Source of the DNA: Thermoguttaceae bacterium
GTDB taxonomy: Bacteria; Planctomycetota; Planctomycetia; Pirellulales; Thermoguttaceae
Direction of reading: 5' to 3'
NCBI GenBank assembly: GCA_017405595.1
Contig: JAFRAC010000009.1
Coordinates: 1-64,000, forward strand
DNA: 64,000 nucleotides
This document shows positions 15,033 to 48,561 of the stretch, piece by piece; the first letter of the stretch is position 1; each line of letters starts with the position of its first letter. The translations under genes and the position numbers were made by a program. A model generated the notes under the pieces. The model ran no database searches. It saw only the letters and a program-made list of their open reading frames with translations, and was not told where the DNA came from.

Positions 15033-15210
15033 AAGAATTTCTCTTGTTGAGAATTTCTCTTGTTGAGAATTTCTCTTGTTGAGAATTTCTCTTGCTGAGA
15101 ATTTCTCTTGCTGAGAATTTCTCTTGCTGAGAATTTCTCTTGCTGAGAATTTCTCTTGCTGAGAATTTCTCTTGCTGAGAATTTCTCTTGCTGAGAATTT
15201 CTCTTGCTGG
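15033..15210. repeat. 16-bp tandem repeat, 11 copies, in the leader of a secreted-protein gene
   Basis: Unit GAGAATTTCTCTTGCT, starting at 15035 and repeating every 16 bp to 15195. The copies nearest the gene carry GTT in place of GCT. Each unit holds the dyad GAGAA-T-TTCTC. The array ends about 20 bp from the start codon of the downstream minus-strand gene. On the minus strand each unit contains AAGAGAAA, similar to that gene's own AAGGAGAAA. Confidence 0.97.
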
Positions 15211-15381: not shown

Positions 15382-18300
15382 TCAGTCGAGCCCGCTGGCT
15401 TCGTCTTCGTCGTCGAAGAACTCTTTTTCGGACTCGCGGGTGAAGTAACGGCGGAGAAATTCGTTGTCCGATTCCTCTTCGCGCTCCCCGTCCGTCTCTT
15501 CGGCGCTGCCGGCGGACTCCTCTTTTTCGTCGGAACGAACAAAATCGTTCCAGGTCGAGAATGTGTAGGAATCGGCCTTTTTCGGTTCCTCTTCCGGAGA
15601 GTCGTCTTCGACGCTGATCACCTGATCGGCCGGGACCGCATCGGATTCGAAATGGTCGTCGTCCCCTTCGAAATCGGAATCGGGTGAGACCGAAAGGCCG
15701 TCGGAATCCGGAATTTCGGGAGCATCGGCGCTGAAAGAGGGAGCCGAATCGGTGTAACCGCTTCCGGCGCTGATCGGCGCGTGTTCCCGGTCCAGAGGAG
15801 CGGCCGAAGTATATTCGCCGCCGGCATCTTCGTCTTCCCGGCTGTCGTATTCCTCCTCGTCCTCTTCTTCGCCGCCGTATTCCTCATCGTCGTCCGAATC
15901 GTCGTACTCTTCGGTTTCCGAATCGTACTCACCTTCCTCGTCGTCATCCTCTTCGAGGTCGGAATCTTCGGTTTCCGAGTCGTATTCCTCTTCCTCGTCG
16001 TCGTCCTCTTCGAGTTCGGAATCTTCGGTTTCCGAGTCGTATTCCTCTTCCTCGCCGTCGTCCTCTTCGAGTTCGGAATCTTCGGTTTCCGAGTCGTATT
16101 CCTCTTCCTCGCCGTCGTCCTCTTCGAGTTCGGAATCTTCGGTCTCCGAGTCGTACTCCTCTTCCTCGCCGTCGTCCTCTTCGAGATCGGAATCTTCGGT
16201 TTCCGAGTCGTACTCCTCTTCCTCGTCATCGTCCTCTTCGAGGTCGGAATCTTCGGTCTCCGAGTCGTACTCTTCGTTGTCGTCCGAATCGTTCCCGGCG
16301 CCGGCATCTTCTCCGATGTCGTCAGCCTCATCGTCGTCATCCCACTCGTCGTCGTTGTCATCGTCGGCGAACGATGCGACGGCCGAATTGGGAATTTCGG
16401 AATCCTCTTTCCGGTTATCCCAGATTCTGCGGGGGGACGTTCCCCTGGCGTTCTCCTCTTCGCCGGCAGCGGGGGAATCGCCGTCGGCGGAATCCGCAGC
16501 GGTTTGCTTCGGGCGGGCGACGGTCACCGAAACGGGCGAGACGACACGGGGCGCGCCGTATTCCTCGGCGGCGGGAATCGGTTTCGGCTCAAACTTCTCT
16601 TCCGGCTCGTCGGGCATTTGTCGCATCGACGGGGGGAGAATCACCCGGAACTGCTTGACCTTCATTGTTTTGTCGGGAAGGACAAAGACCGGCCGGTCGA
16701 GTTTGAGGAACGTCTTGCAGATATGCTGATGGCAGGTAAAGAGGAAAATCTGCCGGCCCGCTTCGGCAAACTCGGCAAGCACGTCGGCGGCGGCCGCCGC
16801 GCGGTGATTGTCGAAGTTGACCAAAACGTCGTCGAGAATCAGCGGCAGACTGACGCCGTGTTTCTCGAACGAGGTGGCCAGCGCCAGACGGATCGCGATA
16901 AAGAGCTGTTCGCGCGTTCCGCGGGAAAGGGAACCGATATCGAGCGTCTGCCCGTCTTCGGTATCGACGTAGAGCGTGTCTTCGCCCAGCGGGGTCCAGA
17001 TTTTGATGTAAAGCCCGTCGGTGAGCCGCTTCAAGAGACGCGACGCCTCTTTGAGCGTTTCGGGCTGGCGTTCCTTTTCGTAGGCGCGGCGTATATCTTC
17101 CATCATCTTGCAGGCGACCGCGCGGCTCTGCCAGATGCGGGACATCTCGTCGATACGGCGCGAGACCGCCGCCGACTCGAACCGGTCGGCGACAAACCCG
17201 CGCTGCGCCGCCAGGTTGGCGAGCTGTTCGGCGAGCCGGCCGATCTGGAGCGTTTTCTCTTTCCTGTCGGCCGAAAGGCGTTCGATCCGTTCGGTGAGCG
17301 CCTCCATGAGGGCAGGCAGGTTCGGACGGACTTTTTCGTCGTCGAGGACTTCGGCAATTTCGGCTTCTTCGCAGTAACCGCCGATGACCCCCGCAATCTG
17401 GTCCTCGACCCCTTGAAGGCGTGCGAGGAGTTCCTGATGCGACCTGTAACGCGCGGCAAGCTCTTTGAGATGGTCAACCGATTTGGCGTCGAAAAGCGAG
17501 AGGTAATCGCTCAGATCGACGTTCATCCGGTGAATGCGCGCCAGGATTTTGTTCCGCTCTTTCCGGAACCCGCTGAGCTTTTTAAAGAGGTCGGCTCTCT
17601 CTTGGCGGACGAGCCGGACTTCGTCGAGCAGATCTTTCAGGTGGGAAATCTGGTTTGATGCCGAGGCGTGTTCGAGAGGTTCGGCGCCCGTTTCGCCCAT
17701 AAGGAGCTCGAGCCGGTCGGTAATGCTCTTTTTCTCCTGCTGATGGAGGTCGAGCAGTCCGCGCTTTTCGGCGATTTTCCGCCGGAGCGAATCGGCGAAA
17801 TCGACCCGCTGCAGCAGTCCTTTGAGATGGGAGGGTTTCAGGGTCGGCGAAAGACCGGCGGTCTTGAGCCACGCCATCCAGCGGTGATGGGCGGCCGAAA
17901 CCGACTTATGGGCGGCAGCCAGCCGCTTTTCGAGAATCTCCTGCCGGTGAACCGCGTTTTTATAGCGGGCGCTGAGGGGGAGAAGACGCTCGAACGCGGC
18001 CAGGTCGGCTTCGGCTTTCATGAGCCGGTTCTCGACCGTCTGGCCCGGCGCGGGGTACTTCTGGTCGATGGCGGCGGCCTCGGCCTTGACCTGATCGGCG
18101 CGTTTCATGACCAGCGCCAGCTGGCGCTGGTTCTCTTCCAGTTTGGCGTAGTTGCGCCGTTCGATCGTCGTCTTATAGAAGAGGATCGCGACCGCGATGA
18201 TGATGCCGAGAATGCCGATCGACGGATCGAAGGGGCCTTTCCCGAGGAAAGCAAAGATAGCCAGAAGCCCCCCGAGCGCGACGCCGATCCCGATGGCGAT

Positions 18301-37975: not shown

Positions 37976-40072
37976 CTACCGGTCCCAACCGAGAAGGCGG
38001 CGTTTGGCTTTCATGTCGCCGACGATCTTTTCCCCCAGACGGACCGGGTCGGTATCGACGTTCATTGAGGAGCCGAGCGTCTCAAGCGTTCCGTGCTTTA
38101 AGAATTCAATCACATTTTTAGAACCGTAAATCGGCGCTTCGACGCAGTGGTACGAGCTGATGCCGTTGAGGCGGAATCCGAGCGCGGCATCGATTCCCTT
38201 TTCGTTTCCCCATTCGGGAGAGGAGAACGCGAAAGGCATTTCGTACATTTTCCGCCCCAGAGCGCCTGCCAGGCCCGCGAAGATTCCTGACGAACGGGTG
38301 TTGTCGATGCATTCCCCCACATGCCAGACCGGAGGAAGGTCGGGTTCCAGGAAAGCCCGGAGCGACGGACCGGCTTTTTCCTTTCCCGAGACGGCGCAGT
38401 AGCCGAGTTTCATCAGCGGGAACGAGGCGCATCCGTTCGAAAGGATCAGAACATTGTTCTTCAGCAGGACATCGGCAACGTCGATGATGCACTTTTCGTA
38501 AAGGACTTTCGGGTTATTGCACCCGACCATATTGACAACGCCCAAAATCTGTCCGCTGCGAATCGCCTCGGCCAGGGGCGCCATGCTGCCGAACCGTTTA
38601 TGGATATATTCCACCGAAAAGCCGACTTCGGCTTCCACCTCGTAGGAGGGAATGTAAACCGGCAGGCCCTTTCGCGTCTCGAAACTTTCGATTGCGCGGC
38701 GGACGATCTTTTCGGCCAGAGCTTTCGTCTCGCCGATATTCGAGTGGCGGTGGTCGTACTCGAAGCGTTCGGCGCCGGGGAGCCGGGCCGATTCGCTTGT
38801 GGTGATCACGGCGGTTTTAAAGCACTTTGCCACTTCCATGATCGACGGGAAGACGTCCTGAACATCGGCGACCCACAGGTCGAGCGCGCCGGTTCCGAGA
38901 ACCAGTTCCGCCGAGACGGCGTTCGAGAGGGGAATAACGCCGGCGTACCGGTACATCGCCGACAGGCCGCTGCAGCAGATTCCGTAGAAGCGGATTCCTT
39001 TGGCTCCCGCTTTTTTTGCCAGAGCGAGCATCGGTTCGCTTTTTCCCGCTTCGACGATCCGGCTGACCAGGAGGGGCAGGTGGCCGTGAACGGCAATATT
39101 CACGTATCCTTTTTGAAGCGCGCCGATATTCACCTTCGAGGTTACGCGGTCGCCGACTCCAAAGAGGGAGTCGGTGGCCAGCGAAGCGCCGACAACCCCC
39201 GAAAAGGTGAACGCCAGTCCGCAGCGCAGAAACTGCTGCATGACCGAACGCCAATCGCCGTCGGTGCCGCATCCCGATTTGTGGTACGCTTCGAAGACTT
39301 CGTGATACGCGCTGATCGGAAGGATGTCGAGTTCTTTCCAGACCTTTTGCCGTTCGGGCGCGGCGCAGGCGGCAATCGTTTTGTACTCGCCGGGAACGGT
39401 GCGCGAAAGATCTTCCAGCAGGGCGTCGGCGAGATCTTTCGCAACGTCGCTGAGCGGACGGTCCTTTTGAGGAATCCCGAACGCTTCGGCCGTCGAACGG
39501 ATTTTCTGTTCGCCGAGGATCGGTACATCAAGCTTCCCCTCGGCCGCCCATTTGAGCGCGAGCATGACTTCGCGGGCGTGCATGCCGTGCTGAGCCGCCC
39601 CGGCGGCGGCACTGCGCAGAAGGTTCCGGGCAACGATCAGATCGGCATCGGCCCCGCAAACGCCGCGCGGGGCTTTCTGGGTGATCCGGCAGGGCCCCAT
39701 GTTGCAGATTCTGCAGCAGATTCCGGCAAGACCGAAACTGCATTGGGGCTTCTGTTTGTCGAAACGGTCGAAAGCCGTATCAACCCCCAGCTGTTCCAGA
39801 CGGAGAAGCATTTCGCGCACAGCCGGATCGGGGGTCTGGTCGATGACGTTCTGTTTTGCGGGGAAGGTTTTCCGGTATTCCGCCACCGCATTGGTGTAGT
39901 CTTTGATGAACGCCTGCGGATCATCGGCCTCTTCCTGCCCATGACCCGCTTTGAGGATGACGGTCGGAATGCCGTGTTCATCGAATCCGATGATGTTCCG
40001 GTGAGAGTGGATGCCCGCCGGCGCATCGGAAGCGCCTCGGGAATGATGATGGGAATGGGGAATTTCTGCCAT
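37976..40072 (-). CDS. CODH-like protein (CooS family) lacking one C-cluster cysteine
   Basis: A 698-residue protein with the CooS scaffold. The D-cluster cysteines (111, 119) and B-cluster cysteines (120, 123, 128, 139; QCSFGLAGICCRICNMGPC) are present. C-cluster ligands match His329 (AVHGHLP), Cys367 (GICCSG), Cys518 (VGCNNP), Cys548 (SNGCA) and Cys588 (VGECIDN). However, the position of the canonical Cys in DYQC is Asp406 (ADVQDVFPS). Deviant CooS-V of Carboxydothermus also lacks a canonical ligand and is reported to hold an Fe-S-O hybrid cluster with no CO activity. A His-rich N-terminus (HSHHH; HSH) is unusual. It ends an ABC-importer operon, and no cooF, cooC or acetyl-CoA synthase gene is near. 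True CO oxidation is doubtful. Confidence 0.88.
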   Translation of the reverse strand: MAEIPHSHHHSRGASDAPAGIHSHRNIIGFDEHGIPTVILKAGHGQEEADDPQAFIKDYTNAVAEYRKTFPAKQNVIDQTPDPAVREMLLRLEQLGVDTAFDRFDKQKPQCSFGLAGICCRICNMGPCRITQKAPRGVCGADADLIVARNLLRSAAAGAAQHGMHAREVMLALKWAAEGKLDVPILGEQKIRSTAEAFGIPQKDRPLSDVAKDLADALLEDLSRTVPGEYKTIAACAAPERQKVWKELDILPISAYHEVFEAYHKSGCGTDGDWRSVMQQFLRCGLAFTFSGVVGASLATDSLFGVGDRVTSKVNIGALQKGYVNIAVHGHLPLLVSRIVEAGKSEPMLALAKKAGAKGIRFYGICCSGLSAMYRYAGVIPLSNAVSAELVLGTGALDLWVADVQDVFPSIMEVAKCFKTAVITTSESARLPGAERFEYDHRHSNIGETKALAEKIVRRAIESFETRKGLPVYIPSYEVEAEVGFSVEYIHKRFGSMAPLAEAIRSGQILGVVNMVGCNNPKVLYEKCIIDVADVLLKNNVLILSNGCASFPLMKLGYCAVSGKEKAGPSLRAFLEPDLPPVWHVGECIDNTRSSGIFAGLAGALGRKMYEMPFAFSSPEWGNEKGIDAALGFRLNGISSYHCVEAPIYGSKNVIEFLKHGTLETLGSSMNVDTDPVRLGEKIVGDMKAKRRLLGWDR

Positions 40073-40089: not shown

Positions 40090-40860
40090 TTAAATGTAGT
40101 ATTCGATATACGAATCGCTTTTGAGGTTGAACAGTTCAAAAATCTTGTCCCGCACATGCAGGAATTCTTCGCCGGTCCGGTCCCGCTGGTCGGGGAGCGG
40201 AACTTTGACGATACTCTTGATCCGGCCGGGATCGGCCATCATGACCACGATGCGGTCGGCAAGAAAGACGGCCTCTTCAATATCGTGTGTGACAAAAATG
40301 ACGGTCTTTTTTTCGTTGCGGGAGATGTTCAGGATGTCGTCCTGAAGTTTCATCCGCGTGATGGCGTCGAGCGCGCCGAACGGCTCGTCCATGAAGATGA
40401 TTTCCGGATCGACCGCCAGGCCGCGGGCAATCGAAACCCGCTGCTGCTGGCCTCCGGAAAGCTGCAAGGGATGACGCTTCTCAAAGTCGGTCAGGCCGAC
40501 GAGGTCGATATACTTCTTTGCGCGTTCGGCGCGCTCTTCTTTGGAAAGGCCAAGCGATTCCAGACCGAGTTCCACGTTCTTCTGGACGGTGCGCCAGGGA
40601 AGGAGACCGTAGTTTTGAAAAATCGTGATCCTTTTCGGCGAGGGGCCGGCAACCTCTTCCCCGTCGATTTTGACCGAGCCGCTTTCCAGCTTTTCGAAAC
40701 CGGCGAGTACGTTCAAAAGGGTGCTCTTGCCGCAGCCGGAAGGCCCCAGGAGACAGATGAACTCGCCCCGCTCGACGCTGAGCGTCACGCGGTCGAGCGC
40801 AACGAATTCTTTTCCGCCGAGTTTAAAGCGCTTGCAGGCGTCTTTGACTTCGATCTGCAT
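40090..40860 (-). CDS. ABC transporter ATPase, SsuB/TauB/NrtD type
   Basis: A 256-residue ATP-binding subunit. Walker A LLGPSGCGKSTLLNVLAGF, Q-loop NYGLLPWRTVQKN, signature LSGGQQQRVSIARGLA, Walker B IIFMDEPFGALD and the H-loop FVTHDIEEAV are all present. The LPWRTV pattern and short C-terminus match importers for sulfonates, taurine, nitrate or related small anions. It overlaps the stop of the permease gene by one base and is 17 nt from the CODH-like gene, so four genes form one operon. The substrate is not proven; the sulfur context favours an organosulfur compound. Confidence 0.92.
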   Translation of the reverse strand: MQIEVKDACKRFKLGGKEFVALDRVTLSVERGEFICLLGPSGCGKSTLLNVLAGFEKLESGSVKIDGEEVAGPSPKRITIFQNYGLLPWRTVQKNVELGLESLGLSKEERAERAKKYIDLVGLTDFEKRHPLQLSGGQQQRVSIARGLAVDPEIIFMDEPFGALDAITRMKLQDDILNISRNEKKTVIFVTHDIEEAVFLADRIVVMMADPGRIKSIVKVPLPDQRDRTGEEFLHVRDKIFELFNLKSDSYIEYYI

Positions 40861-41621
40861 CAGACCCTCCCTCCCCAGGCTGCGAGAATCCGGTTTTCAA
40901 TGAGACGGAGCAAGCCGTCGAGAAAGATACCGATGATACCGATGACCAGAATTGTTGCCAGGAGGATGTCGGCGCGGATGTTGTTCCGGGCATCGATGAT
41001 CTGATAGCCGAGTCCTGACTGGGCGCCGACCATTTCGCCGGCAACCAGAAAGATCCAGGCGGTGCCCAGAGCCAGGTGAATGCCGCTGGCGATCTGCGGG
41101 AACGCCGCCGGAAAGATCACTTTCCAAGTGAGCGCCGGCTGGCGGATTCCGTAGTTGCGGGAGACCTTGATGTATATCGGATCGATGTTGCCGACGGCCG
41201 CGACGGTCGAAAGGAGAACCGGGAAAAACGCGGCGATGAAAATGATGACCACCGCCGGAATGTCGCCGATTCCAAAAAGGAGAACGATGAACGGCATCCA
41301 TGCCGTCGGCGAGATCGGCCGCAGAAGCTGAACCGCCGGGTTAATGAACTGAAAGAGTTTCGGCAGACGGCCGAGGATCAGTCCTAACAGAACCGCCGCC
41401 GCGACCGCGCTCAGATAGCCGGCGGCGAAACGGTACAGGCTTGTTTTGATGCTTTCAAGAAGCTGGCCGTTTCGCGTCATTTCCAGCAGCGCGTCGAACG
41501 CCATTTTCGGCGAGGGGAAGAGGGCCTTGTCGTAATGGCTGAAATGAAAAAGGAGCTGCCAAATCAGAATGACCGCGGTAACGGAAACGACGGTGTTTCT
41601 GAGAGAAATCAGTCTTTTCAT
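40860..41621 (-). CDS. ABC transporter permease, SsuC/TauC type
   Basis: A 253-residue inner-membrane permease with about six hydrophobic segments. It starts with MKRLISLRNTVVSVTAVILI. The ATPase-docking EAA-like loop is VIFPAAFPQIASGIHLALGT. It belongs to the binding-protein-dependent permease family of sulfonate/taurine/nitrate/pyrimidine importers. It lies 13 nt after the binding-protein gene and overlaps the start of the ATPase gene, so the operon order is binding protein, permease, ATPase, CODH-like protein. Confidence 0.92.
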   Translation of the reverse strand: MKRLISLRNTVVSVTAVILIWQLLFHFSHYDKALFPSPKMAFDALLEMTRNGQLLESIKTSLYRFAAGYLSAVAAAVLLGLILGRLPKLFQFINPAVQLLRPISPTAWMPFIVLLFGIGDIPAVVIIFIAAFFPVLLSTVAAVGNIDPIYIKVSRNYGIRQPALTWKVIFPAAFPQIASGIHLALGTAWIFLVAGEMVGAQSGLGYQIIDARNNIRADILLATILVIGIIGIFLDGLLRLIENRILAAWGGRV

Positions 41622-41634
41622 GGGCGCTCCTTCC

Positions 41635-42558
41635 TCAGAAATCAGATTTGACGAAATCTTCGTACGCGGGCGGTTCGTCGGAAAGACCGTATTTTTTGAC
41701 CCGGTCGACGAGGGCGCTATACGTCTCTTCGGTGATTTCGGGATCGTTATACGAAATCCATTGGAGGGAAATGTCGAGGACTTCGTCCTTCTGATTCAGG
41801 AACTTTTCGGCAACCTGTTTTGCCGTCTCTTTGGTGAGAGAGGAACAGGCGGTCTTATAGCTTTCGACAAATTCCTTTGCCGTTTCGGGACGGGTCTCGA
41901 TGAACTTGTCGTTGAAGACCAGCGCGCAGCAGAGGGAATCTTTCCAGAGCTCTTCCGAGCCGAAAAGAACCTTGCCGACACCGAGGGAAACCCCCATCGC
42001 GCCGAACGGTTCCGCGACACAATAGCCGTCGATCTGCTTGGAGGCAAGCGCCGAAGGCATTTCGGTCGGGGCCAGTTCGGTAATCTTGACATCGTCGGCG
42101 GAAAGGCCGGCCGCGGCGAGCGCGTCGAGCAGAAGGATGTAGTGCGAAGACTGCCGGTGCGGAATGGCGAACGTCTTTCCTTTGAGGTCGGCGGCGGAGC
42201 CGATCTCGTTCGAGACGATCAGCACGTTCCCGTCGCGGTGACCGAGCGCCGCGGCTTTGAGACCGATCCCCTGCTGTTTCGATTTCATCGCCAGCTCGAT
42301 CAGCACCGAGGCGCCGTCGACCCGGCCGGCATTCAGGGCATCGAGAAGTTCCGACCAGGAGCCATATTTCACCAGTTCGACCCGGACGCCTTGGGCATTT
42401 TCGAGTTGTTGGGCTTCCTGAAGAACGGCCAGCGCGTGGGTAATCGGCAGGTAGGCAATCTTCACGGTTTGGCGGCCGTCCGGTTTCACCGCGCAGCAGC
42501 ATGAGGTCAAGAGAGCTGTCAGGGTCAGCACGACAACGATCGATAATCTTCTTTTCAT
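41635..42558 (-). CDS. ABC substrate-binding lipoprotein, SsuA/TauA/NrtA-like
   Basis: A 307-residue lipoprotein with lipobox LLTSC followed by CC (near residue 19). The start at 42558 (MKRRLSIVVV) follows AAAGGAT on the minus strand. The mature domain begins TVKIAYLPITHALAVLQ and continues with GSWSELLDALNAGRVDGASV and GKTFAIPHRQSSHYILLLD, the fold of nitrate/sulfonate/bicarbonate binding proteins (type II periplasmic). EMPSALASKQIDGYCVAEPF is the typical hinge and second-domain motif. It is the first gene of the operon with a structured leader and an Rrf2-like operator upstream. Ligand unknown. Confidence 0.9.
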   Translation of the reverse strand: MKRRLSIVVVLTLTALLTSCCCAVKPDGRQTVKIAYLPITHALAVLQEAQQLENAQGVRVELVKYGSWSELLDALNAGRVDGASVLIELAMKSKQQGIGLKAAALGHRDGNVLIVSNEIGSAADLKGKTFAIPHRQSSHYILLLDALAAAGLSADDVKITELAPTEMPSALASKQIDGYCVAEPFGAMGVSLGVGKVLFGSEELWKDSLCCALVFNDKFIETRPETAKEFVESYKTACSSLTKETAKQVAEKFLNQKDEVLDISLQWISYNDPEITEETYSALVDRVKKYGLSDEPPAYEDFVKSDF

Positions 42559-42581
42559 AGCAAACCATCCTTTCTCTCTAC

Positions 42582-42712
42582 GGCGGAACTCAAAGTCTGT
42601 TCCGCCTTGACCTTGTTCCAAAGGGGGGATTCTGAAAGAATAATGAAATCATTAATCCCCCGCCCGGGAGGTGAAATCCTTCGCCAAACGGCATTGCCGC
42701 TGACCGCGGCAA
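42582..42712 (-). promoter_or_regulatory. Structured 5' leader of the ABC/CODH-like operon
   Basis: Three stems lie between the promoter and start codon: GGCGGAAC/GTTCCGCC (42582-42606), GGGGGATT/AATCCCCC (42624-42661) and TTGCCGC/GCGGCAA (42694-42712). The one nearest the gene could mask translation signals. I do not recognise a known riboswitch class. Confidence 0.55.
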
Positions 42713-43315: not shown

Positions 43316-45055
43316 ATGAAGGTCCATGTTTCAGGGATTTTAAGCCATTATTTTGATGGAAACCGTGTTGTGGACGGCGCCGGGGAGACGGTTCGGCAGA
43401 ACCTCGACTCGATTGCCAATGAATATCCCCGCGCCGGCAGGCTTCTTTTCGATGACGGGGGGGATTTCCGGCATCTTGTTCTGATTTTCGCCGGGGAAGA
43501 GAACCGGACTTCCCCTTCCGTGTGGGATGAGCCTGTTCAGGGGGAGGAGCTTTTCCTTGTTCCCGCAATGACAGGCGAGGCTCCCGAGAGTGTCGCCGCC
43601 CGTATGGCCGGAGCCCATGAGCACCATGAGCAGGAAACCGATTCTGTTTCCGCCTGCGGTTCACCTTGTGATTCCGGCTGCGAGAGCGTTTGCGGTTCGC
43701 CTTGCGATTCCGGCTGCGAGAGCGTTTGCGGTTCCCCCTGTGATTCCGGGTGCGAGAGTGTTTGCGGTTCGCCGTGCGATTCTGGGTGCGATAGTGCCTG
43801 CGGTTCGCCGTGCGATTCCGCCTGCGGTTCCTGCCCGGCGCCGGAACTGCGCGCACCGAAACGGAAGCGGCCGCAGAGTCTCATTCCCGAATACCGCCAG
43901 GAAGCCGTTTCGTTCGGCAAGAACGACTTTCAGCGCTACCAAAACAATCTTGTTTTACGCGAGATCGGGGTTCAGGGACAGAAGCGGATTAAAGCCGCGA
44001 AGGTCGTGATCGTCGGTACCGGCGCGCTCGGATCCTCGGCGGTCCAGTATCTTGCCGCGGCCGGCGTCGGAACGATGAAGCTGATCGATCCGAACGAGGT
44101 TGCTCTCGAAAACCTGCAATGCCAGGTACTCCATACGCTGCGCGATCTTAACCGCCCGAAAGTTGCTTCGGCCAAAGACTCGATTCGGAATATCAACCGC
44201 GATATTCAGGTTGAAACGGAAAACGTTTCACTCGATGCCGGGAATGTCGAACAGCTTTTCCGGGGATACGATTTGGTTCTCGACTGCACCAACAGTTACA
44301 AATCCCGCTATCTGATCAACGATGCGGCGGTTCTGCTCGGGATTCCGTGGATCTTCGGAGCGGTTTATCACTTTGAGGCTCAGGTCGGCCTCTTTGCGCC
44401 GGATTCGGGGGTCTGCTACCGGTGCCTCTATCCGGCTCCGCCGGCAGCCGATCTTCTTCCGCCGGGGGGCGAAGAGGCGCTCTTTACGCCTCTGCCCGGA
44501 ATGGTCGGGAGTATTGAAGCGGCCGAAGCGCTGAAACTGATCATCGGGATCGGTTCCCCCCTGGCCGGAAAGCTTCTGACCATCGATTCGCTCAGTATGG
44601 AGTTCCGTTCGCTGGCCCTCGTTCACAGCGACGAGTGCCCGGTCTGCGGAAACACGCCTTCGATCAAATCGATGAGCGACTTCGACGAAGAGGATTTTGC
44701 GGTTCCGGAAGACGGGCGGGCCGACGCGCCGATTCCGACGATCGAGCCCGAAGAACTGGCCCGAATGATCGAAAGCGGCGAACGTGTGACGGTCGTCGAC
44801 GTCCGGGAACCGCACGAAAGATCGGCGCTCCGCTTCCCCAACGCGAAGGTGGTGCCGATTGGCCAGATCGAACGCCGCTGGCGGGAATTCGATCCGCAAA
44901 CCGATACGGTTTTCATTTGTAAAACAGGTAAACGAAGCGTTTTCGCCGCGCAAACCCTCAGAGAGACCGGATATCAAGGGCCCTTGTTCAGTCTCCGCGG
45001 GGGGATCGACGCGATGAAAGATATTATGTTCTCGCACGAGGGTGCCTGGCTCTAA
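43316..45055 (+). CDS. MoaD-like / Cys-ladder / ThiF-MoeB / rhodanese fusion protein
   Basis: A 579-residue fusion. Residues 1-90 have a ubiquitin-like MoaD/ThiS pattern (GETVRQNLDSIANEYP; GEELFLVPAMTGE). Residues 114-173 hold 16 Cys, 15 of them spaced exactly four apart (CGSPCDSGCESV repeated). Residues 205-450 are an E1-like ThiF/MoeB domain (VIVGTGALGSSAVQYLAAAG) with zinc pairs CYRC and CPVC; the usual NLQRQ is NLQCQ (Cys269). Residues 485-579 are a rhodanese domain with active loop CKTGKR. E1-rhodanese fusions activate and thiolate sulfur-carrier proteins. Here carrier, activator and sulfurtransferase are in one chain, with what may be a polysulfide or metal store. Encapsulin and desulfurase genes follow. 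Confidence 0.9.
   Translation: MKVHVSGILSHYFDGNRVVDGAGETVRQNLDSIANEYPRAGRLLFDDGGDFRHLVLIFAGEENRTSPSVWDEPVQGEELFLVPAMTGEAPESVAARMAGAHEHHEQETDSVSACGSPCDSGCESVCGSPCDSGCESVCGSPCDSGCESVCGSPCDSGCDSACGSPCDSACGSCPAPELRAPKRKRPQSLIPEYRQEAVSFGKNDFQRYQNNLVLREIGVQGQKRIKAAKVVIVGTGALGSSAVQYLAAAGVGTMKLIDPNEVALENLQCQVLHTLRDLNRPKVASAKDSIRNINRDIQVETENVSLDAGNVEQLFRGYDLVLDCTNSYKSRYLINDAAVLLGIPWIFGAVYHFEAQVGLFAPDSGVCYRCLYPAPPAADLLPPGGEEALFTPLPGMVGSIEAAEALKLIIGIGSPLAGKLLTIDSLSMEFRSLALVHSDECPVCGNTPSIKSMSDFDEEDFAVPEDGRADAPIPTIEPEELARMIESGERVTVVDVREPHERSALRFPNAKVVPIGQIERRWREFDPQTDTVFICKTGKRSVFAAQTLRETGYQGPLFSLRGGIDAMKDIMFSHEGAWL
43655..43834 (+). repeat. 36-bp coding repeat specifying the CX3 cysteine ladder
   Basis: The 12-residue unit CGSPCDSGCESV is repeated about four times, then degenerates to CGSPCDSACGSC. 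The Cys positions are every fourth residue from 114 to 170, then 173. Confidence 0.97.
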
Positions 45056-45163
45056 TCTCTCCCAGAGGAGTTCTCGGGGAAAGAGAGCGCTGATTTTCAC
45101 CAGTGTGAATGGTTCGATGTTTTTTGTTCAACAGAAATTCGAAAGAATTGAGGAGAGATGAGA

Positions 45164-46120
45164 ATGGCTAAAGAAATTGAAAAAGAAGTTGGCATTAACG
45201 CGTTAGGCCCCCGTGCCGCGTATAACCTGGCGAATGTCACCAAGACGCCGCCCCAATTCGGTGCGCTGACGCCGAAATGGCTGACCCGCTTTTTGGAGTT
45301 CAAAGGGCTGGAGACGGGGATCTACCGTGTGAACAAGGTTATCGAGGAGAATTCCCCCCTTGATGTGCTCTGCAGCCGCACGAAGAAGACCGATCTGATT
45401 CCGGAAGGGTTCGTCGATTATCAGACCGAACCGCGTGAGTACAAACTCAATTCCCTTTCGACGATTATCAACGTCAATACCGCGATCGAGGATGTTTACA
45501 GCTCTCCCTACGATCAGGTTCAGGAACAGCTCCGTCTGGCGATCGAGTCGCTGCGGGAACGGCAGGAAAGCCAGATCATCAACGACGACGATTACGGCCT
45601 TCTGAAAAACGCGGCCGACTCGCAGCGGATTCAGACCCGCGACGGCGCGCCGACCCCCGACGATATGGATGAGCTCCTCTCGAAGGTCTGGAAGGAACCC
45701 TCCTTCTTCCTGGCGCATCCCCGCGCGATTGCGGCGCTTCAGCGGCAGTGCACCCGCCGGGGCGTGACCCCCGTCTTCACCAATATCGCCGGCGGAACAT
45801 TTCTGACCTGGCGCGGCCTTCCGGTGATCCCGACCGACAAACTTTTGGTCGACGGCCTGAAAAATCCGAAATCCCAGAGCGGCAAAACGAATATCCTTCT
45901 CGTACGTACCGGCGAGGCGAAACGGGGTGTGATCGGCCTGTTCCAAGCCAATCTGAAGAACGAGCATTCGCGCGGCCTTTCGGTCCGGTTCCGCGGAATC
46001 GACAATAAGGGGGTCGCGTCTTACCTGCTCTCCCTCTACTGCTCGGCGGCGATCCTGGCCGATGACGCGATCGGGGTTCTCGAAGATGTTGAGGTAGGTG
46101 AATACTATGACTACGATTAA
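45164..46120 (+). CDS. Family 2A-type encapsulin shell protein (SrpI-like)
   Basis: A 318-residue predicted shell protein with an HK97-type fold, of the family 2 encapsulins. Recognised by AAYNLANVTKTPPQFGALTP near the N-terminus, VEEN-type loop followed by LDVLCSRTKKTDLIPEGFVD, and the adjoining desulfurase gene, the usual cargo of family 2A shells. The ATG at 45164 is chosen (AGGAG at 45151-45155, 8 nt spacing) over the one at 45158. It would assemble into a nanocompartment enclosing cysteine desulfurase, as shown for SrpI of Synechococcus, a sulfur-starvation-induced protein. It overlaps the desulfurase gene by 14 bp, implying coupled expression. Confidence 0.88.
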   Translation: MAKEIEKEVGINALGPRAAYNLANVTKTPPQFGALTPKWLTRFLEFKGLETGIYRVNKVIEENSPLDVLCSRTKKTDLIPEGFVDYQTEPREYKLNSLSTIINVNTAIEDVYSSPYDQVQEQLRLAIESLRERQESQIINDDDYGLLKNAADSQRIQTRDGAPTPDDMDELLSKVWKEPSFFLAHPRAIAALQRQCTRRGVTPVFTNIAGGTFLTWRGLPVIPTDKLLVDGLKNPKSQSGKTNILLVRTGEAKRGVIGLFQANLKNEHSRGLSVRFRGIDNKGVASYLLSLYCSAAILADDAIGVLEDVEVGEYYDYD

Positions 46121-48032
46121 TCCCAAAGATGAATGGCCGTTTCCCGAGGGGGGGGAGCCTTTCCCGGGCTTTCCCGCCGAACGGGCCGGCAGCATTCCCT
46201 ACGCCGGCGGGATTCCGTCCCCCGAGGGGGTTCCGGGTACCGGAAATCTCCCTTACGCGGGAAACATACCGAGTGCGGCGGGGTTCCCCTACGCGGGGAA
46301 TCTTCCCGGCGCAGCCGCGCTGCCCAATACCGGTGAGATCCGCGAAGAGGAGAGCCTTCCGGGGCTCGGTGTGTTCAGCACCCCTGCCGGGATTCCGAGC
46401 GAAGCGGAATTGAGCTCCATGGCAAACGGACTCTTTCCCGATTTGGCGCGAAATCTCGCCGCATCGGAAACGCAGACCGAAATCGTTTCTCCCCCCGAAG
46501 TCACGGGGCTGACCGCCTCCGGCGGACGAGGGGAAGAGTTCAACTGGGAACGGCCGTTCGGTTACGGTCCGGAACCGGCCGAACCGTGGCTTTCGTCGGT
46601 TCAGGCGCCTGCGGCGCCCGAGTCGGCGTTTGAAGCGGCGTCGGGCGATCTGCCCGCTCTTCCGCCGGATCCGGCTCCGAGTTATACACCGGTGGTTCTC
46701 TCGAAGGAGGAAGCGGCGGAAAGCCGCCGCGCCGTTGATGTGCCGACATCCCTTCAGGGTGAGTTTCCGGCGAAAAAGACGGTCCCTCCCGCCGGAACGG
46801 GGCGGAACGATTCGATCCGAATCGGGAGCAAGACGCTGGCCCAGATTCGGGCCGATTTTCCCATCCTTTCGGAAGAGATCAACGGCAACCCGCTGGTTTG
46901 GCTCGATAACGGCGCCACGACTCAGCGGGTGAAAAGTGTGATCGACCGGATTTCGTACTACTACCTGCACGAGAATTCGAATGTGCACCGCGGCGCCCAT
47001 ACGCTCGCCGCCCGGTCGACCGACGCTTACGAGCATGCCCGCGACATTGTCCGCAATTTTATCGGCGCCCCTTCGTCGAGCGAAATCGTTTTTGTGCGCG
47101 GAACGACCGAAGGAATCAACCTGGTCGCCAACGCGTATGTCAAGCCGCTTCTCGCGCCGGGAGATGAGATTATCGTCTCGATTCTGGAACACCACGCGAA
47201 CATTGTTCCCTGGCAGCTGATTGCCCAGCAGACCGGCGCCGTGATCAAGGTGATCCCGTGCGACGAAACCGGCCAGCTTGACCTTCACGAATACGTGAAA
47301 CTCTTTTCGAAGAGAACGCGGTTCGTGGCCGCGACCCATGTTTCGAACGCACTGGGAACGGTCACCCCGATCGAAGAGCTGATCGCGATTGCCCATCAGC
47401 ACGGCGTGCGGATTTTGATCGACGGAGCCCAGTCGGTTGCACACATTCCGGTAAACGTTTCGGTGCTCGACGCGGATTTCTTTGTCTTCTCGGGACACAA
47501 GGTTTTCGCGCCGAACGGGATCGGCGCGGTCTACGGAAAACGGGAACTCCTCGAAGCGGCGGCTCCTTACCACGGAGGGGGGAACATGATCGCCGACGTG
47601 ACGTTCGAAAGGACGATCTACAACGGCGTTCCGAACAAATTCGAGGCCGGAACCGGGAGTATCGCCGACGCGGTCGGGCTGGGCGCCGCACTCGATTACC
47701 TTTCGGCGATCGGCATGCCCGCGGTCTATCAGTGGGAGCATGAGCTTCTGCAATACGCGATCGGAGAAATGAAGAGGGTCAAGGGCCTCCATCTGGTCGG
47801 AAACGCGCTCAACAAGGCGTCGGTTTTGGCGTTTAAACTCGACGGCTATTCCGACGAAGAGGTCGGCAAACGGCTCGATCGTTACGGGATTGCTGTTCGG
47901 ACAGGCCATCACTGCGCCCAGCCGATTCTGCGCCATTTCGGGCTCGAAAGTACGGTTCGTCCGACAATCGCCCTCTATAATTCCCCCGGCGATATCGATG
48001 CGCTTGTCCGCGCGCTAAGAACATTCGCCTAG
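46107..48032 (+). CDS. sufS: SufS-type cysteine desulfurase with N-terminal encapsulin-cargo extension
   Basis: A 641-residue PLP enzyme releasing sulfur from cysteine as persulfide. The catalytic domain starts near residue 245 (LAQIRADFPILSEEINGNPL). PLP Lys465 lies in FVFSGHKVFAPNGIGA and catalytic Cys603 in AVRTGHHCAQPILRHFG. The first 240 residues are disordered-looking, rich in Pro/Gly/Ala, with repeats such as NLPYAGNIPSAAGFPYAGNL and an isolated helical motif ELSSMANGLFPDLARNLAA. Family 2A encapsulin cargo desulfurases carry such N-terminal domains for loading. The ATG at 46107 is preferred to the GTG at 46098 because of the spacing from AGGTG. It overlaps the shell gene by 14 bp. Confidence 0.93.
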   Translation: MTTINPKDEWPFPEGGEPFPGFPAERAGSIPYAGGIPSPEGVPGTGNLPYAGNIPSAAGFPYAGNLPGAAALPNTGEIREEESLPGLGVFSTPAGIPSEAELSSMANGLFPDLARNLAASETQTEIVSPPEVTGLTASGGRGEEFNWERPFGYGPEPAEPWLSSVQAPAAPESAFEAASGDLPALPPDPAPSYTPVVLSKEEAAESRRAVDVPTSLQGEFPAKKTVPPAGTGRNDSIRIGSKTLAQIRADFPILSEEINGNPLVWLDNGATTQRVKSVIDRISYYYLHENSNVHRGAHTLAARSTDAYEHARDIVRNFIGAPSSSEIVFVRGTTEGINLVANAYVKPLLAPGDEIIVSILEHHANIVPWQLIAQQTGAVIKVIPCDETGQLDLHEYVKLFSKRTRFVAATHVSNALGTVTPIEELIAIAHQHGVRILIDGAQSVAHIPVNVSVLDADFFVFSGHKVFAPNGIGAVYGKRELLEAAAPYHGGGNMIADVTFERTIYNGVPNKFEAGTGSIADAVGLGAALDYLSAIGMPAVYQWEHELLQYAIGEMKRVKGLHLVGNALNKASVLAFKLDGYSDEEVGKRLDRYGIAVRTGHHCAQPILRHFGLESTVRPTIALYNSPGDIDALVRALRTFA

Positions 48033-48054: not shown

Positions 48055-48561
48055 CTAGGTGCTCTTCCCCAGGTCCGGAGAGGGATGCGCCCCTTTTCTG
48101 CCGGGATCTTCCCGCTGCGGGAGTTCCGGCGGGGAAGGGGTTTTTGACTGGACGGGGTTTCGGGGAGTGAGAAGATCGCTCAGCTTTTTCCGGCAGAAGA
48201 AATCGTGCAGAAGATGATCGCACTCCGTCCACATCGGGAGTGTTTTGCAGAATGCCCTGCGGGGGCAATGGTAGTCCGGATCGGCGAGGCAGATCACCGG
48301 CGAAAGGGTGTTTTCCATCAGTTCGAGTATTTCCCAAACTGTATACTCTTCCGGTTTGCGGGCGAGTTTGTATCCGCCATTCTTGCCGCTCGAAGCCAGA
48401 AGAAGTTTTTTGGCGGAGAGTTCCCTCGCAATGGCCTCCAGGTATTTTTTCGAGATACCCTGCCGTGCGGAAACATCTTTTAACGGAATGAAATGCCCGT
48501 TATCGTTCTCCGCAAGGTCGATCATGACCCGGACGGCATACCTTCCTTTGGTTGAAATCAC
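48055..48561 (-). CDS. Second Rrf2-family regulator with three-cysteine motif
   Basis: A 168-residue regulator, convergent with the desulfurase gene. GTG start at 48561. The sequence STKGRYAVRVMIDLAENDNG, wing SSGKNGGYKLARKPEEYTVW and the cluster motif CLADPDYHC-PRRAFC (C-x7-C-x5-C) parallel the other Rrf2 protein of the locus. The C-terminus adds about 25 Pro/Ser/Lys-rich residues absent from the first. It probably senses Fe-S or thiol status and controls the sulfur locus. Its promoter carries the same AATCCCATCGG sequence as the other Rrf2 promoter. Confidence 0.9.
   Translation of the reverse strand: MISTKGRYAVRVMIDLAENDNGHFIPLKDVSARQGISKKYLEAIARELSAKKLLLASSGKNGGYKLARKPEEYTVWEILELMENTLSPVICLADPDYHCPRRAFCKTLPMWTECDHLLHDFFCRKKLSDLLTPRNPVQSKTPSPPELPQREDPGRKGAHPSPDLGKST

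Follow-up and report, generated by a model that had tools for sequence, protein, structure and literature searches.

A cysteine-dense arm on a putative pseudo-E1 rhodanese protein encoded beside a family 2A encapsulin: a candidate accessory sulfurtransferase

Elemental sulfur is reported to be stored in a family 2A encapsulin (Benisch et al. 2024), and to our knowledge the route by which sulfur leaves such shells is apparently unsettled, the literature naming rhodaneses as likely acceptors with no mechanism given. In the thiocarboxylate pathway of Wolinella, the genes are HcyS, HcyD and HcyF. Family 2A encapsulins with a cysteine desulfurase constitute a sulfur compartment (PMC8346489; see also PMC8049743), and a survey found rhodaneses and serine acetyltransferases to be enriched as accessories of this family, the rhodaneses being proposed as sulfur acceptors (PMC8346489). 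For E1-like enzymes, we read the roles of individual residues from Uba4, where ATP hydrolysis is abolished in the R18A+R77A double mutant and the thioester forms on C202 (PMC7527816). Metallothionein-3 is a cysteine-dense protein able to hold sulfane sulfur, together with Zn (PMC12618007).

The stretch of DNA considered here (64,000 nucleotides from a Thermoguttaceae bacterium; hereinafter, the window) contains an encapsulin cassette on the plus strand. Its first gene (43316-45055) is an open reading frame for a 579-aa protein comprising a CysO-like beta-grasp domain, a cysteine-rich arm, a ThiF/MoeB-type domain and a rhodanese; below we call it the armed protein. The gene of the family 2A shell protein (45158-46120) begins 102 bases downstream and scores 473 bits on NF041162 (cut-off 380), the solved relatives being 8t6r and SrpI (6x8m). 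It is overlapped by 23 bases by the gene of a cysteine desulfurase (46098-48032), the predicted encapsulin cargo with an N-terminal extension of about 245 aa, which is above the cut-off of TIGR01979 (sufS). The shell and desulfurase cargo genes are adjacent, as in family 2A encapsulins, the match of the desulfurase to NF041166 (E = 8e-226) being below the cut-off (752 bits vs 800). In the N-terminal extension of the desulfurase (46098-46832) we observe NIPSAAGFPYAGNLPG-like repeats in a row; the same extension contains GIPSEAELSSMANGLFPDL, similar to the cargo motif LARLANEFFS.

Facing the cassette from the other strand is a gene of an Rrf2-family, IscR/CymR-like regulator (48055-48561, minus strand; above the cut-off of TIGR00738), and a similar Rrf2-type regulator gene adjoins the cassette in two congeners with an armed protein. 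On the other side, and given here for context only, lies a divergent SsuA/TauA-like ABC importer consisting of an ATPase (named by sequence), a permease and a binding protein (40090-42621, minus strand). A CooS-type CO dehydrogenase, also named by sequence (37976-40072, minus strand), separates this importer from further sulfur genes upstream, which encode a MetY-type O-acetylhomoserine sulfhydrylase and CysK.

The N-terminal domain of the armed protein (aa 1-88; 43316-43579, plus strand, as are all parts of the protein) has no Pfam match of its own, ThiS (PF02597) being matched in 14 of 22 family members. Its AF2 model (pLDDT 88) has the beta-grasp fold of the sulfur carriers ThiS, MoaD and CysO, the closest PDB structure being Mycobacterium tuberculosis CysO (3dwm, E = 1e-5), and yet the C-terminal Gly-Gly of such carriers is replaced by GE at positions 87-88, immediately followed by the arm (aa 89-187, 16 Cys; 43580-43876). 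The arm is predicted to be disordered: in the full-length AF2 model, pLDDT is below 50 and mostly 25-32 over residues 85-217, which comprise the arm. With the mean pLDDT of 61.8, the domain arrangement in that model is unusable.

The ThiF/MoeB-type domain (PF00899, 9.6e-65; aa 208-442, 43937-44641, delimited by Pfam and alignments) retains the E1-like fold with paired Zn CxxC motifs (C367/C370 and C441/C444), and the rhodanese domain (PF00581, 2.5e-13; aa 478-567, 44747-45016) has an intact catalytic loop with C535 in CKTGKRS. The active site of the ThiF-type domain, aligned with MoeB and Uba4, is eroded. Three of five nucleotide-site residues are replaced (N210 for R14 of MoeB, R18 of Uba4; C269 for R73, R77 of Uba4; N326 for D130, D134 of Uba4), K282 (K90 of Uba4) being kept, and the catalytic cysteine of the crossover loop is G384 within PPGGEEA. 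With these changes and GE in place of GG, the armed protein is probably no working E1.

An earlier note on this DNA had described a cysteine ladder inside a ThiF-type enzyme. The ladder itself was recovered exactly: the window positions 43655-43834 are codons 114-173, where Cys occurs at 114, 118, 122 and so on to 170 (n = 15, step 4) and then at 173, which makes 16 Cys within 60 residues. The placement held in part, as the ladder belongs to the same protein but lies outside the ThiF domain, in the linker between the carrier-like (1-88) and ThiF (208-442) domains; hence an insertion within the ThiF domain is ruled out by both the Pfam bounds and the AF2 model. The order claimed in the note, with the arm between the sulfur-carrier-like and activating domains and a rhodanese at the end, agrees with Pfam and the AF2 fold match.

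At the DNA level, the ladder is a tandem repeat with a 36-bp unit (Tandem Repeats Finder: 43655-43826, 4.8 copies, 87% matches; should the assembly have collapsed or expanded the array, the exact number of copies may be wrong). In the protein, it consists of CGSPCDSGCESV three times, followed by two diverged copies. The first three 12-aa units have the same protein sequence and differ at silent positions only; among units 1-4, pS = 0.58 and pN = 0.036, hence pN/pS is about 0.06. Thus, the amino-acid sequence of the repeat has been held while the silent sites drifted. The reading frame is certain, since the CysO/ThiS-like domain before the arm and the ThiF and rhodanese domains after it are all in one frame. 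When the same protein was shuffled 20,000 times, CX3 runs reached 5 cysteines at most, compared to 15 observed; together with the synonymous drift, this rules out chance or a low-complexity artefact.

Other repeats were seen as well. The window contains two more tandem arrays, at 15034-15209 (16-bp unit, 11 copies, 99% match) and 15901-16272 (57-bp unit, 6.5 copies, 94%). Elsewhere in the same genome, two unrelated proteins with CAPACEPAC-type cysteine repeats and signal-peptide-like N-termini are encoded (L108:3728-4633, plus strand; L107:4161-4997, minus strand), one of them being extremely Cys-rich. In another genome of the same order, an unrelated 606-aa protein (L097:1682-3499, minus strand; G042:C1) ends in a CHSA ladder with about 11 Cys at period four, and a radical SAM protein is encoded beside it (L097:20-1678, minus strand).

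A strict CX3 period raises the possibility that a radical SAM maturase acts on the ladder and cross-links it after translation, as in families of targets with Cys-Xaa-Xaa-Xaa repeats. The CHSA ladder protein, which adjoins a radical SAM protein and has a weak, sub-cut-off match to TIGR04117, would speak for such a role. However, the arm itself scores 8 bits on TIGR04117 (cut-off 50), the maturase models TIGR04115 and TIGR04119 have no match in the window's genome (G000, 85% complete), and the CX3 spacing is not kept in the other arms described below. Hence the maturase-target explanation is rejected on the TIGR04117 score and the missing maturase matches, and we regard it as highly improbable.

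To place the armed protein among its relatives, we use a scan of 84,980 species genomes, which yielded 32 relatives in three planctomycetes (RUG695, RGIG9609, RUG14216), in Lachnospiraceae/Pseudobutyrivibrio and in Fibrobacter, most of them of rumen or gut origin. In nearly all cases where the contig reaches far enough, the homologue is followed by the shell and desulfurase genes. Its occurrence in three phyla at 50-60% identity points to horizontal transfer. The scans of 119 family, 296 order and 392 phylum genomes added five armless Thermoguttaceae cassettes, all from one other genus. Only four species, all from the window's genus, were seen to have an arm, and they form one clade (support 100/100) with a long stem of 0.57. 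In a fifth congener (G002), the protein encoded in the cassette is armless, and no encapsulin was seen in the congeners G004 and G005.

The four arms contain 16, 11, 12 and 8 Cys in 99, 79, 69 and 65 residues, respectively, and each is acidic, with an abundance of S, G, A and D or E. The CX3 period occurs only in the window protein, the other three arms having mostly CC, CX2C, CX4C and wider gaps. Thus, the feature held across the arms is the cysteine content and not the spacing, and the strict period, which the earlier note stressed, is special to one species. The same note had asked whether relatives possess the linker without conserved cysteines; among the relatives, a long linker was never found without Cys.

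This recurrence bears on another explanation, namely that the enzyme is decaying and repeats have expanded neutrally in its linker. The tandem 36-bp array, the lost E1 residues and the long stem branch of the armed clade (0.57) could all be produced by decay, but the low pN/pS between the repeat units could hardly be, and four species with about 59% identity keep Cys-rich arms of differing sequence. Moreover, all four retain the rhodanese loop, the Zn cysteines and the C-terminal FSHEGAWL, the loop (C-x-x-G-x-R-S) and the Zn cysteines being kept throughout the family. Neutral expansion is therefore considered very unlikely.

Two features were lost along with the gain of the arm. In all four armed proteins GE stands in place of GG and the crossover Cys of the E1 is absent, with PPGGEEA or PPDGE[EA]A in the crossover-Cys region, whereas both are kept in 34/34 armless relatives with a fused carrier (28 from Lachnospiraceae/Fibrobacter, G002, and five from the other Thermoguttaceae genus). 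The ATP site behaves differently. Of the fused members, only G002 retains R73 of MoeB (R77 of Uba4), and R14 (R18 of Uba4) is Lys in many members and Asn in the four armed and five armless Thermoguttaceae proteins (G301, G304, G703, G705, G707), so that the R14 replacement is ruled out as a mark of the arm. As both residues are replaced in armless relatives too, the erosion of the ATP site is older than the arm, while the loss of GG and of the crossover Cys came with it. In particular, the loci L024-L051 and the five genomes just listed (group g21) have lost R73 and kept GG and the crossover Cys. The armless relatives thus may be impaired as well, by ATP-site changes (R14, R73) that predate the arm, and the fused E1 may depend on a second, intact ThiF found nearby at several loci. 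Since the arm was gained and the residues were lost once, in one clade, the link between them is a single correlation.

The genomic surroundings differ in a similar manner. Around the armless cassettes we observe genes of a JAB peptidase, a ThiS and enzymes of the CysE, CysK and MetY types, along with a second ThiF whose Arg residues are intact; JAB, ThiS and a stand-alone MoeB/ThiF are close to the cassette in the armless G002, G301 and G304. Such gene sets are the parts list of bacterial thiocarboxylate-dependent synthesis of cysteine or homocysteine (gene clusters in PMC1779556; the Wolinella pathway is cited in PMC5764234). Whole-genome searches of the four armed genomes (drafts, 73-86% complete) found neither Prok-JAB nor a recognisable ThiS, although the carrier domain of the armed proteins is itself too diverged to match ThiS and an equally diverged free carrier would escape the search. 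In the same searches the armed protein was the sole ThiF of MoeB type, and the remaining full-length match to ThiF in each armed genome looks TcdA-like. Gaps in the drafts alone are an unlikely cause for the absence of three linked families from all four.

Taken together, the data are best described by a pseudo-E1 that bears a poly-Cys arm and would act as an accessory sulfurtransferase of a family 2A sulfur encapsulin, a description that rests on one clade. The multi-thiol arm would carry sulfane sulfur between the encapsulin desulfurase and the rhodanese, replacing thiocarboxylate chemistry; from sequence evidence, we assign this reading a probability of about one half. The ancestor would have been a fusion of a CysO-like carrier with a MoeZ-like E1-rhodanese serving a family 2A sulfur encapsulin. 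In the armed lineage the protein thiocarboxylate would no longer be made, the beta-grasp and ThiF domains remaining as a scaffold, and the one-sulfur Gly-Gly-COSH tail would have given way, at the same place in the chain, to a long and flexible arm bearing 8-16 thiols. The encapsulated desulfurase would make sulfane sulfur from cysteine, the arm would take it as a persulfide or polysulfide and exchange it with the C-terminal rhodanese, providing a buffered pool outside the shell and delivery to the cell. The cassette, the arm and its recurrence, the lost residues and the missing partner genes are read directly from sequence; we infer the sulfur on the arm, the direction of its flow and the contact with the shell, as well as the loss of E1 activity. 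The occurrence of Cys ladders in unrelated proteins of this genome speaks against this reading. The narrowest point of the SrpI pore is 3.7 A, hence there is no ground to assume that the arm enters the shell, and its entry is not a part of the proposal.

The suggestion that a multi-thiol arm could hold sulfur had been made from the sequence alone. It has become likelier, since the arm belongs to a sulfur-encapsulin cassette with a desulfurase and three congeners have Cys-rich arms (11, 12 and 8 Cys) despite the sequence turnover, but the CX3 period did not prove general and the protein is probably no working E1.

Alternatively, the arm could be a mixed Zn-persulfide store or a metallothionein-like metal-thiolate segment for several ions of Zn, Cu or Fe, with the rhodanese alone transferring sulfur. 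Metal clusters would fit arms that are short and acidic and have 8-16 Cys, with CC and CX2C pairs among the relatives; HEHH directly precedes the ladder in the window protein; and metallothionein-3 binds both Zn and sulfane sulfur (PMC12618007). Yet CXC, characteristic of metallothioneins, occurs in none of the four arms, the histidines are not conserved, and the cassette has no metal-resistance or transport gene, its neighbours handling sulfur. We consider a purely metal-binding role or a mixed store rather unlikely, and metal binding and persulfide may coexist on the arm.

A disordered Cys-rich linker could also serve as a structural or redox tether, forming disulfides within the arm or to the shell, cargo or other chains and so assembling or regulating the complex with no stored sulfur. 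In favour of such a tether, the Cys-repeat proteins with signal-peptide-like N-termini in this genome are likely disulfide-linked outside the cell; the armed protein, in contrast, is cytoplasmic, without a signal peptide, in a likely anaerobe. Besides, 8-16 Cys are many for a switch, and a tether leaves the loss of GG and the crossover Cys unexplained, hence this role is distinctly unlikely.

If the arm does carry sulfur between desulfurase and rhodanese, the rhodanese protein beside the shell seems to have swapped thiocarboxylate chemistry for a poly-thiol arm, and it is a candidate for a protein whose single disordered chain holds many sulfane sulfurs. More tentatively, this could be a distinct type of protein-borne sulfur carriage, where a pair of E1 and sulfur carrier would have abandoned single-atom thiocarboxylate chemistry for a disordered poly-persulfide arm with many sulfurs per chain, which loads or unloads a sulfur-storing encapsulin. 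A gut bacterium in which a 16-Cys arm replaces the usual sulfur-carrying tail, beside a shell of the sulfur-storing type, suggests a different manner of carrying or holding sulfur. The older armless form in Lachnospiraceae, Fibrobacter and other Thermoguttaceae and the armed form constitute a natural before-and-after pair, which makes the question of what takes sulfur from the encapsulin testable.

Compared to the SrpI/CyD family 2A encapsulin (PMC8049743, PMC8346489), the locus has the same shell and cargo families, gene order and rhodanese accessory gene; the accessory protein here is four-part, with a carrier-like domain, a Cys arm and a ThiF domain in addition. Neither ThiF nor a poly-Cys arm is mentioned in these two papers, and no Cys-rich ThiF/rhodanese protein was found in titles and abstracts of the open-licence literature. 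The mycobacterial CysO-MoeZ-Mec-CysM system and the Wolinella pathway use the same carrier, E1 and rhodanese modules, CysO being the best fold match of the carrier domain, and the armless cassettes have JAB, CysK or MetY near; here, however, the carrier is fused to the E1, and the armed form has a poly-Cys arm and lacks GG, the crossover Cys and JAB. Uba4/MOCS3 share the order of ThiF followed by rhodanese (6yub is the top full-length fold match), but have no carrier fusion or Cys arm, and the equivalents of C202, R18, R77 and D134 are replaced here. With metallothionein-3 (PMC12618007), there is no homology and no common CXC; what is shared is a Cys-dense, flexible segment potentially able to hold sulfane sulfur and metal, in our case embedded in a putative bacterial sulfurtransferase.
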